Part shown: positions 35,846-39,369 of the stretch, piece after piece
Layout of the letters: each line of letters begins with the position of its first letter
Numbering within the stretch: the first letter of the stretch is position 1
DNA from: an uncultured Monoglobus sp.
Lineage (GTDB): Bacteria > Bacillota > Clostridia > Monoglobales > Monoglobaceae
Assembly (NCBI GenBank): GCA_947625055.1
Contig: CANQMT010000001.1
Location: 62,001 to 126,000 of the forward strand
Direction: 5' to 3'
Length of the DNA stretch: 64,000 bases
Notes under the pieces: generated by a model
The model's database searches: none
What the model saw: the letters and a program-made list of their open reading frames with translations, nothing else
What the model was told of the DNA's origin: nothing
Translations under genes and position numbers: made by a program

Positions 35846-35917
35846 GCCCCTTTTGAAAATTATTCGGTGACAATTTTAATTTATAAGGCATAGTATGTAT
35901 AAGAAATGGGGGATTTT

Positions 35918-36196
35918 ATGGGCGCAGAGCGTAAAAAAGGCGTGATACCGCTGAACAGACTGCCGATCGATTCGTCGGCGCTGATCAGCGGAATATCAGA
36001 AAAAGCCGCCGAAAAGACCGAGCTGCTTGTTAACACCGGCTTTGTTCCGGGAGAGCGCGTGACGCCTCTCTTTACCTCTCCCGCGGGGGATCCGACGGCG
36101 TATCTTTTGGGCGGCTGCTTCACTGTGGCGCTGAGGCATGCCGAAGCAGAAAATATTTTAGTCACGGAGGAGAGTTATGAGGATCGAACTATTTAA
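35918..36196 (+). CDS. feoA: FeoA-domain protein
   Basis: A 92-residue small SH3-like FeoA protein, an accessory of ferrous iron uptake. TGFVPGERVTPLFTSPAGDPTAYLLGG is the typical block, and GGCFTVALRHAEAENILV the end strand. ATG 35918 follows GGGGGA; an ATG four codons upstream overlaps the ribosome site. It overlaps feoB by 20 bases, indicating coupled translation. Cytoplasmic partner of FeoB. Confidence 0.85.
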   Translation: MGAERKKGVIPLNRLPIDSSALISGISEKAAEKTELLVNTGFVPGERVTPLFTSPAGDPTAYLLGGCFTVALRHAEAENILVTEESYEDRTI

Positions 36197-38060
36197 AACA
36201 AAAACAGAGAACCGGCGCGTTCGCCGCCTCTATCTTTTGGGCAACCCGAACGTTGGTAAAAGCACTGTTTTTAACGGCATGACGGGGCTTAAACAGCATA
36301 CCGGGAATTGGTCGGGTAAGACGGTGGACGCCGCCGGCGGAAAATATACATACAACGGAATTGAATACTGCCTGACCGACCTTCCCGGAACGCACTCGGT
36401 CGACTCGGATCTTTCCGAGGAAAGAGTGGCCGGCGGCGAAATGCGAAGCGCGGCAAGCGGCGCGGTAACTCTGATCATCGCTGACGCGTCCGCCCTAAAA
36501 AGAGGCGTGGCGCTGGCGCTGGAGTTTATTGAGGAAACTCGCGGCGGCGCGATCCTCTGTGTCAATTTCTGCGACATTGCCGCCGAAAAGGGAATAAATA
36601 TCGACTTCGGTCGTCTCAGCTCACTTTTGGGGATCCCGGTAACGGGAATAACCGCAAAACACGGCGCTGACATAAAGCGTCTCAAAGCGCTGATCGACAA
36701 CGAATTTGATAAGATCATTTCAAGCGTCCCGCAGCGCGGCGAAAAAAGACAGCCCGCGGAGCGGCTCAAAGCCGCGGAGAAAATCGTCTCGGAATGTGTG
36801 AGCGCGCCGAGACTTGAAGGCGGGCTCACGCTCAAGATCGATCGCTTATTGACATCAGGCGCGGTTGGAATTCCGGTCATGATCGCCTTTCTCGGCATGA
36901 TACTCTGGCTGACGATACGCGGAGCCAATTACCCCTCTGAGCTGCTGTCGCGGTTTTTCGGCTTTCTAAAGCCATACATCGCAGCGCCTTTGCAGCATCC
37001 TGCGGTCCCGAGCTTTATCCGCGGCATGATCATGGACGGTGTGTATGACACTGTCACGTGGATAGTTGCGGTCATGCTGCCGCCCATGGCGATATTTTTC
37101 CCGCTCTTTACACTGCTTGAGGACGCCGGCTTTCTGCCGAGGATAGCGTTTAATCTCGACAAATGCTATGCCCGCTGCGGCATGAGCGGAAAACAGTGCC
37201 TGACACAGTGCATGGGTCTTGGCTGCAACGCTGTCGGCGTTTGCGGATGCAGGATAATGCCGGGCGAAAAACAACGCGCCGTTGCGGTCATAACCAACAG
37301 CTTTATCCCGTGCAACGGCCGCTTCGCAATACTGATCTCGCTTTCCGCGATATTTGTGGGCGGCGTCGCGCCCGGAGCGCCGCAAGGTCTCGTGCCGATG
37401 CTGTGCGTGCTGGGCCTTATCTGCCTCGCGGCTGCCGCGACCTGGGGAGTGTCGCGCGTTTTGACAAAAACTCTGTTTAAGGATAACTCGCAGACCTTTG
37501 CGCTTGAACTTCCGGAATACCGCAGGCCCGAGATAATAAAGACGCTCGGCGTCTCACTTGTAAGCAGAACGCTCAGAATAGTCGGCCGCGCCCTTTTGGT
37601 TTCCGCGCCGACCGGCGCGGCGGTGTGGCTCCTGGCGAACATAACGATCGGAGGGCTGCCGCTTCTTACTCATATTTCGCGTTTCTTTGATCCGTTCGGA
37701 AGGTTTATCGGTGTAGACGGATTCATTATCCTCGCTTTTATACTTTCGCTCCCCGCGAACGAGATCACTCTGCCGATCCTGGTGATGGGCTACACCGCTG
37801 CGGGAACAATGACGGACGCCGGAAATCTTGAAACTCTGAGGCAGGTATTTGAGGCGAACGGATGGACGATAGTTACCGCCGTCAATATGATGCTGCTGAC
37901 GCTCTTTCACTGGCCGTGCGCCACGACGCTTATGACGATCTATCATGAGACCAAAAGCCGAAATGTGCTCGCGCTCTCGTTTCTGACTCCGTGTTTTGTC
38001 GGAATAATCTTGTGCCTTTTTGTCAAATGGTCGTCGGTTTTGTTAAAGCTCATAATATAA
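36177..38060 (+). CDS. feoB: Ferrous iron transporter FeoB
   Basis: A 627-residue Fe(II) transporter: an N-terminal G domain (G1 GNPNVGKST, G2 region TGNWSGKTVD, G3 DLPGTHS) followed by about 8-10 membrane helices with the Gate motifs (FIPCNGRFAI and GLGCNAVGVCG). The canonical G4 NxxD is seen only as CVNFCDIA, suggesting relaxed guanine recognition. Shorter than the E. coli FeoB of 773 residues but usual in clostridia. Strong GGAGGAG site. It transports iron across the plasma membrane. Confidence 0.95.
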   Translation: MRIELFKTKTENRRVRRLYLLGNPNVGKSTVFNGMTGLKQHTGNWSGKTVDAAGGKYTYNGIEYCLTDLPGTHSVDSDLSEERVAGGEMRSAASGAVTLIIADASALKRGVALALEFIEETRGGAILCVNFCDIAAEKGINIDFGRLSSLLGIPVTGITAKHGADIKRLKALIDNEFDKIISSVPQRGEKRQPAERLKAAEKIVSECVSAPRLEGGLTLKIDRLLTSGAVGIPVMIAFLGMILWLTIRGANYPSELLSRFFGFLKPYIAAPLQHPAVPSFIRGMIMDGVYDTVTWIVAVMLPPMAIFFPLFTLLEDAGFLPRIAFNLDKCYARCGMSGKQCLTQCMGLGCNAVGVCGCRIMPGEKQRAVAVITNSFIPCNGRFAILISLSAIFVGGVAPGAPQGLVPMLCVLGLICLAAAATWGVSRVLTKTLFKDNSQTFALELPEYRRPEIIKTLGVSLVSRTLRIVGRALLVSAPTGAAVWLLANITIGGLPLLTHISRFFDPFGRFIGVDGFIILAFILSLPANEITLPILVMGYTAAGTMTDAGNLETLRQVFEANGWTIVTAVNMMLLTLFHWPCATTLMTIYHETKSRNVLALSFLTPCFVGIILCLFVKWSSVLLKLII

Positions 38061-38147: not shown

Positions 38148-38176
38148 TTGACATATGAAATGTGTTGGGGTATACT
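38148..38176 (+). promoter_or_regulatory. Promoter of the SCP2-like gene
   Basis: TTGACA (38148-38153), 17 bases, TATACT (38171-38176), with AAAGGTG ribosome site shortly before the start. Confidence 0.85.
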
Positions 38177-38222
38177 TGTTTTAAAAATAAAACAAAATCT
38201 TGAAAAAGAAAGGTGATTTTTA

Positions 38223-38735
38223 ATGACTTTTGAACAGGCCGTTGGCAGAGTACAGGCGATCATGGAAAACGCCAGCGTAGAGAAAATCGGTAACGTTGCG
38301 GTTCAGATCCAGTTCACAAACAGCGACTGCAAGGGTATTATGTATATCTCGACCAAGACGGGCGTACTTGACGTTCAGGGATATGATTACTATGATTGCG
38401 ACGCGGCTGTGGAACTGATCTACGGCGACCTCAGCAAGGTCCTGACAGGAAAGCTCAGCGCCGCCAACGCAATCGCAAGAGGCGATATCGTTGTTTCCGG
38501 CAACCCCGACGCTTTCTTGGCTCTCGCCGGCTGCGCTAAGAAAGCGCCCGCGAAAAAGCCCGCTCCCAAGAAGGCTCCCGTTAAGAAGGAAGCCGCGAAG
38601 CCCGCTCCCAAAAAGGCTTGCGCAAAAAAGGAATGTGAACCCAAAGCCGAGGCTAAATCCGCCGCGAAGCCCGCTCCCAAATCTGCGGCAAAACCCGCTG
38701 CGAAAAAGACCTCAGCTAAAAAGTCCGTCAAGTAG
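38223..38735 (+). CDS. SCP2-like lipid-binding-fold protein with Lys/Ala/Pro-rich tail
   Basis: A 170-residue two-part protein. Residues 1-98 resemble an SCP2 sterol-carrier domain (TFEQAVGRVQAIMENA, KGIMYISTKTGVLDVQGYDY, LTGKLSAANAIARGDIVVSG). Residues 105-170 are a low-complexity KKAPAKKPAPKKA tail of Lys, Ala and Pro, like the C-terminal tails of histone H1-like bacterial proteins, with two extra cysteines. The tail should be strongly basic and could bind DNA, RNA or polyanions. It has its own strong promoter and terminator. No neighbour links it to a pathway. Confidence 0.8.
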   Translation: MTFEQAVGRVQAIMENASVEKIGNVAVQIQFTNSDCKGIMYISTKTGVLDVQGYDYYDCDAAVELIYGDLSKVLTGKLSAANAIARGDIVVSGNPDAFLALAGCAKKAPAKKPAPKKAPVKKEAAKPAPKKACAKKECEPKAEAKSAAKPAPKSAAKPAAKKTSAKKSVK

Positions 38736-38786: not shown

Positions 38787-38816
38787 AAAACCCGCGGAGA
38801 GATCCGCGGGTAATTT
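38787..38816 (+). terminator. Bidirectional terminator
   Basis: Stem CCCGCGGA / TCCGCGGG with a GAGA loop (38791-38810), A-rich before and TAATTTTG after. It serves the SCP2-like gene and the convergent gene at 38828. Confidence 0.8.
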
Positions 38817-38827
38817 TGTTCGGTGAA

Positions 38828-39100
38828 TTAGCTGTTTTTAAGCTTTATGATCCGCACACTGTTGGATAAAGGTTCAAATTCGTCGCTCGTGACCTTCGCC
38901 TCGTTGGGATGTATTGTCAGTTCGCGCTCCTCCTCCGTATTCTCATTAAACTCGTTAATGAGCAGGGAGATCTCTCGCTTCATCTCAGCTATACGGCTCA
39001 ATGTGCCGCTTCTCAGTGCGTCGGGATCGCGGCGCAGATCTTCGCGGACCGCCCTTCCGCTTCTTCGCTCTGAAAATACATTAACTGCTGCAGCTCTCAT
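38828..39100 (-). CDS. Unknown small charged protein
   Basis: A 90-residue protein I do not recognise: RSGRAVREDLRRDPDALRSG, a helix RIAEMKREISLLINEFNEN, and an acidic, polar C-terminus. I chose ATG 39100 (MRAAAVNVFSE), with AGGAG eight bases before it; an in-frame ATG upstream at 39256 has no ribosome site and gives an atypical basic extension. It has no signal peptide or membrane helix. Confidence 0.6.
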   Translation of the reverse strand: MRAAAVNVFSERRSGRAVREDLRRDPDALRSGTLSRIAEMKREISLLINEFNENTEEERELTIHPNEAKVTSDEFEPLSNSVRIIKLKNS

Positions 39101-39369
39101 GCTAACACTCCTAAATTCGGTTTTTAACCAATTTGCCTTAAATATTAATTTTACGTTGTGCAGCAATGAATTTGAAACATCATTGTAACACTTTTGTAAC
39201 ATTATAGCACGGTTACATAAATTTGTCAAGCCTTTTTTACAAACTTTTTTCGGCAAAAACCGCGTTTTTTCGGGCTGTTTGGTTTATGATATGATTATAT
39301 CACACATCCAATACAAAAAATTGCACACAAAAATAAAAAATTTATTTTCCGAAAAAATCAAAAAAACTC

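Follow-up and report, generated by a model that had tools for sequence, protein, structure and literature searches.

Several bacterial proteins are known in which a lysine-rich, histone-like tail is attached to a part with a different task. PhaF, PhaM and AlgP show that such a tail enables a single protein to keep a cargo on the nucleoid (PMC13052382). Peptides built of KPAA repeats have DNA-binding activity, and a role in tethering granules to the nucleoid has been ascribed to PhaF (PMC9239181). HupB and Ku need their Lys-rich tails for DNA interaction (PMC7398561). Hydrophobic intermediates of ubiquinone are bound by the SCP2 domain of UbiJ, and phosphatidic acid is the reported ligand of a UbiT homologue (PMC6747719). 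A model places UbiJ at the membrane together with its partner UbiK (PMC9499169).

The window examined here, a stretch of 64,000 nucleotides from an uncultured Monoglobus sp., encodes a protein that joins both kinds of part. Its open reading frame (38223-38735, plus strand) runs exactly as listed from ATG to TAG and specifies 170 aa, comprising an acidic SCP2 domain (aa 1-103, 38223..38531, net charge -5) and a disordered, histone H1-like Lys/Ala/Pro tail (aa 104-170, 38532..38732, net charge about +19). To our knowledge this pairing is undescribed; each part is of a known kind. We found no description of an SCP2-plus-basic-tail protein in the literature searched, a search whose scope excluded preprints and most subscription papers. 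The first-pass annotation had seen no obvious role among bacteria for a protein of this sort, a claim that is too strong, since PhaF, PhaM and AlgP pair a cargo head with a histone-like DNA-binding tail.

The SCP2 family (UbiJ, UbiT, insect and mammalian SCP2, and the alkylsulfatase C-terminal domain) has its fold and sequence family in common with the window protein, which differs in the long Lys/Ala/Pro tail added to it. The window subfamily also keeps a Y-D-Y-x-D motif, whereas aligned mammalian SCP2 sequences lack all of it save the last Asp. PhaF of Pseudomonas putida resembles the window protein in combining a head for hydrophobic cargo with a disordered histone-like DNA-binding tail (PMC3574117, PMC13052382). 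However, in place of an SCP2 domain the PhaF head consists of an amphipathic helix and a leucine zipper, and the host of PhaF makes polyhydroxyalkanoate (PHA), whereas PHA synthase was absent from the 25 tailed genomes examined. No phasin family appeared among the Pfam matches of the window protein up to E 1. AlgP of Pseudomonas aeruginosa has a KPAA-rich disordered tail with DNA binding (PMC9239181), but its head is helical, in contrast to the mixed alpha/beta head found here, and it is linked to polyphosphate granules, whereas half of the tailed genomes seem unable to make polyphosphate by PPK1/PPK2. In HupB, Ku and actinobacterial TopA, too, a folded domain bears an extension of H1-like Lys repeats (PMC7398561). 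The folded domains of these three act on DNA, whereas that of the window protein is SCP2. The window protein is classed as SCP2 by membership and PhaF-like in its proposed working, and it lies outside the phasin and AlgP families. We know of no SCP2 domain that acts on DNA.

Pfam SCP2 (PF02036) matched the window protein with 23.4 bits, above the gathering score of 21.3, and matched four relatives with 24.0, 34.1, 48.7 and 63.1 bits, the highest of these being a tail-less relative. The alkylsulfatase C-terminal family (PF14864), which is SCP2-like, scored 26.1 bits, just below its cut-off of 27; the metallo-beta-lactamase partner domain was absent, with no second folded domain in the open reading frame according to Pfam and the AlphaFold model. 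Mammalian SCP2 structures were reached by sequence with a profile of relatives (1c44, E 5.4e-6). AlphaFold, supplied with the window protein and 75 relatives, modelled the core (aa 1-100) as a mixed alpha/beta head with pLDDT blocks of 74-88, and a Foldseek comparison of this core model with SCP2 folds gave a best E of 1.9e-6. The best structure match by VIA was the SCP2 domain of the alkylsulfatase Pisa1 (Z 13.8, rmsd 2.1 over 102 residues), and UbiJ (Z 12.3) and fatty-acid-bound mosquito SCP2 (Z 10.9) were also matched. Alignment columns that were invariant or nearly so across the family correspond to A26, Q28, G38, Y41, Y54-D55-Y56-x-D58 and G93. The SCP2-like fold proposed in the first-pass annotation is borne out by the Pfam score and by the agreement of the model with the Foldseek and VIA matches; the domain ends at about aa 103 rather than after 98 residues. 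The fold, together with UbiJ and UbiT, suggests a lipid or acyl compound as the ligand of the head. However, acetyltransferase C-terminal domains (e.g. Eis) have a similar fold and matched the core with VIA Z values of 8.6 to 11, so function is not fixed by fold alone.

The remainder of the protein (aa 103-170, 68 residues) contains 23 K, 20 A, 10 P, 4 E, 4 S, 3 C, 2 V, 1 G and 1 T. It had been described as about 66 residues of nearly pure Lys/Ala/Pro; the type of tail stands, but "nearly pure" is slightly generous for a Lys/Ala/Pro share of 78%. Its histone H1-like character is supported by the Lys/Ala/Pro-rich, Arg-poor composition and by predicted disorder, with pLDDT under 50 at residues 109-152 and 154-166. 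The histone H1-like family Hc2 (PF07382) matched the tail alone with 17.5 bits, below its cut-off of 40. A search for tandem repeats in the tail DNA found none, and Lys and Ala codons are mixed, which rules out DNA repeat slippage as the source of the tail. All Pro codons are CCC (10/10), and G+C is nearly equal in tail (56%) and core (53%).

We also ruled out the tail as a habit of the whole genome, since a query with the tail returned only its own locus (a second match was another reading frame there) and other stretches with the KKxxxKK pattern are single and short. Nine matches to this codon pattern were found in the genome. Two overlap in the tail of the SCP2 protein, and the other seven are single short stretches in other proteins, among them what we take, from the sequences, to be a membrane protein and signal-peptidase-like, ferredoxin-type and FHA-like proteins. 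A reversed KKxxxKK control also gave seven matches, so the single matches elsewhere are at chance level. Other proteins of the same genome (G000, contigs C2 and C3) have Thr/Pro/Ala/Glu linkers, several of them long, which are a separate low-complexity type; a broader tail pattern returned mainly such linkers among the matches listed and was left out of the counts.

We propose, with a probability of about 0.4, that the SCP2 head and the polycationic tail form a tether that keeps a lipid- or acyl-binding pocket on nucleic acid, most likely nucleoid DNA. The protein would be a stand-alone cytosolic one whose acidic, pocket-forming lipid- or acyl-binding head continues into a disordered polycationic tail. 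Like the tails of PhaF, AlgP and HupB, this tail would bind nucleic acid irrespective of sequence, with nucleoid DNA as the most likely target, and would thereby keep the head and its hydrophobic ligand or partner enzyme spread over the nucleoid rather than on the membrane or free. Direct support exists for the fold, for the tail and the constraint on its composition across deep divergence, for the lack of a tail in one clade of relatives, and for a gene that stands alone behind its own promoter. Composition and disorder akin to the tails of AlgP, PhaF, HupB, Ku and TopA suggest that DNA is most likely what the tail binds, and we infer that head and tail together tether a cargo. The recurrence of the head-tail pairing in many related bacteria also suggests that the tail holds the pocket on DNA or another anionic surface. 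However, composition alone leaves DNA, RNA, membrane and polyphosphate indistinguishable as the polyanion to which the tail would bind. If the tail does bind DNA, these proteins would constitute a common class of gut-bacterial nucleoid proteins with a lipid-binding folded part, and two-headed proteins would extend beyond the granule-forming bacteria in which such proteins are known. The SCP2 domains of anaerobes without PHA granules would then gain a place of action. In a further, improbable reading, these proteins would form a Clostridia family that sets a lipid- or acyl-binding pocket on the chromosome. Each would act on the nucleoid as a carrier or sensor of lipids, and its coating of DNA would change with ligand state, so that nucleoid organisation would respond to the status of the membrane or of fatty acids.

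Across relatives, tail composition was conserved but tail length was not, so that only one of the two properties named for comparison in the first-pass annotation proved stable: lengths ranged from 32 to 225 aa in relatives and from 59 to 77 aa in close Monoglobus proteins. The 79 distinct tails, a set that leaves out L073, L192 and L147, had a median length of 71 residues (32-225) and consisted of 31.6% Lys, 28.0% Ala, 9.3% Thr, 8.8% Glu, 8.7% Pro and 0.9% Arg; 62 ended in Lys, and net charge was at least +8 in 74. Substitution rates place both core and tail under purifying selection among close relatives, with dN far below dS in each part. Between the window protein and relative L030, dN and dS were 0.012 and 0.65 for the core and 0.11 and 1.85 for the tail, the latter dS being near saturation (tail dS gave no value in two of eight within-genus pairs). 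Core differences within the genus were almost all synonymous. Tail replacements occurred mostly among A, P, S, T, E, V and K, together with indels, and residue order was not kept. This free variation in length and order, and the existence of tail-less relatives, would suit a passive tail that has no particular partner and acts in solubility or crowding. We consider such an appendage rather unlikely, since the tails keep a Lys to Arg ratio of 34:1 and, with few exceptions, a positive charge, and a general solubility device would not predict a tail confined to one protein of the genome.

The nearest rival to a tether on the nucleoid is that the polybasic tail binds an anionic membrane, where the SCP2 head would collect lipids or hand them over. 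Lipids are what SCP2 proteins act on; UbiJ-UbiK has been placed at the membrane by modelling (PMC9499169), binding of phosphatidic acid by a UbiT homologue is reported (PMC6747719), and a tail with a net charge of +19 would be sufficient for electrostatic binding. Residues that could insert into bilayers are scarce in the tails, with aromatic residues at 21 of 5482 positions (compared with 10% of core residues) and Ile/Leu/Met at 85 of 5482, and Arg is avoided, which argues mildly against membrane binding. Tail composition is also closer to that of known DNA-binding tails, and we regard a membrane role as possible but doubtful.

The same tail could instead bind RNA or ribosomes and so place the head near translation. 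Polycations of this kind can bind any nucleic acid. However, Arg is nearly absent from the tails of this family (51 R and 1735 K, a K:R of 34 compared with 4.75 in their own cores), unlike in Arg-rich RNA-binding tails, and no ribosomal gene was recognised among the recurrent neighbours listed. We regard an RNA or ribosome partner as improbable.

Genome content was relevant to a further alternative, in which the tail would hold the protein on a polyphosphate or storage granule, as with AlgP or PhaF. These two proteins have the same kind of tail, and the genome of the window encodes both PPK1 and PPK2. However, PPK1 was detected in only 12 of 24 tailed genomes compared with 23 of 26 tail-less genomes, and PPK2, sought in the 12 tailed genomes without PPK1, was found in none (0/12). 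Polyphosphate as an obligatory partner was rejected because half of the tailed genomes (12/24) lacked both kinases. PhaC_N was absent from all 25 tailed genomes, including that of the window (0/25), and the positive control was found in Caulobacter; class III PhaC above cut-off was likewise absent (0/25), although its control was also found only below cut-off. With no PHA synthase in 25 tailed genomes, PHA granules were rejected as a general cargo. Many of these genomes were assembled from metagenomes, and any one missing kinase or synthase is weak evidence because the assembly may be incomplete. An anchor on granules appears very improbable. HU was present in 24 of 25 tailed genomes, and the protein as a replacement for HU was rejected on these grounds.

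The combination of SCP2 domain and basic tail, which the first-pass annotation had suggested seeking in relatives, recurs widely. The core was present in 10 of 11 other genomes searched in the genus (the sole miss being 74% complete), in 18 of 51 genomes in an order-wide search, and in 60 of 392 genomes in an evenly drawn sample of the class, with 62 matches. Proteins were labelled as tailed when 30 aa or more followed the core and K+R made up 17% or more of the first 60, and as tail-less when 15 aa or fewer followed. We read all 62 matches. Forty-four were tailed, 16 were tail-less, one was intermediate and one was cut at a contig end. Tailed forms occurred in nine family groups (f1, f10, f13, f16, f30, f31, f32, f52 and f61), and two groups of the class sample, f43 (6/6) and f57 (1/1), were tail-less throughout. 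Two of the 44 tails fit poorly, that of G053 having a net charge of -10 overall, with an acidic stretch after the basic one, and that of G192 a net charge of +2. One set of relatives, of which 80 of 94 were kept, was gathered with a profile (A1) made from tailed proteins, which biases its share of tailed forms; the class sample is less affected. Individual relatives carry caveats, with masked residues in L147, a protein running off the contig end in L192 and a partial core in L208. Many tails of group f52 (L154, L184, L191, L193, L194, L197, L199) depart from the H1-like type, being largely a Lys/Ala/Glu repeat and probably helical, and several tails of this group finish in an H1-like Lys/Ala/Pro stretch.

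On a tree of 84 cores, built from 103 columns (few for so many sequences) and with L073 left unlabelled as a probable frameshift, the tailed label was strongly clustered, with at least four changes on well-supported branches and six on the best tree. Twenty-five of the 26 tail-less proteins fell in one large clade with 10 tailed ones, and the remaining one (L092) lay among tailed proteins. This clustering and these label changes show the tail to be an old, mostly kept, separable module, and since 16 of the 62 relatives are tail-less, the head must also be of use by itself. The existence of both forms in nature allows a direct test of the role of the tail, including a pair within genome G281 (L147 and L186), which has one copy of each kind. 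The tailed G281 copy has a tail of over 190 aa with KPAA-type repeats, partly masked.

Tailed cores in the tree set were all net negative (52/52, -2 to -11), and with acidic cores and basic tails, charge is sharply split between head and tail. Median core charge was -5 in tailed and -4 in tail-less proteins (p 0.0025), although the tail-less proteins belong mostly to one clade, which deprives the comparison of independence. At positions equivalent to 88, 90 and 97 of the window protein, the tail-less clade keeps core lysines that are mostly missing in tailed proteins. It looks as if a putative basic patch on the head replaced the basic tail, in what is a single clade and not an independent test.

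Signals around the gene support a putatively well-expressed single gene. A sigma-70-type promoter, TTGACA-17-TATACT (38148..38176, plus strand), lies 46 bases 5' of the ATG and matches the consensus at 11 of 12 positions, and TTGACA-17-TATA[AC]T is kept in 10 of 11 aligned relatives (all but L031) amid diverged flanking DNA, in agreement with the strong promoter proposed earlier. A ribosome-binding site, AAGGTGA (38210..38216, plus strand), stands 6 bases 5' of the ATG, and AGGTGA occurs in all 12 upstream regions aligned. A hairpin terminator of nine pairs (38790..38811), read on both strands, lies between the SCP2-tail gene and a facing minus-strand open reading frame.

The genomic neighbourhood was rejected as a functional clue, since no neighbour recurs beyond sets of closely related genomes. 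A feoA-feoB ferrous iron pair lies upstream (35906-38060, plus strand); its FeoB scored 285 bits, short of the 315.65 set as equivalog cut-off in NCBIfam, and may be a divergent FeoB. This pair and a GdpP-like gene are found upstream in close relatives only, at no more than 10 of 80 loci (12 of the 80 were dropped from the table of neighbour spacing because a simple gene finder did not call them). Other clades have unrelated neighbours, including a PPIase-domain protein in one clade, a methyltransferase in one tail-less clade and GH94 in another. The facing small open reading frame (38828-39256, minus strand) had no confident match in Pfam or NCBIfam. It is 142 aa as listed, with a true start probably nearer 39100, and has a TTGACA-17-TATAAT promoter at 39229-39201 that matches the consensus at 12 of 12 positions.
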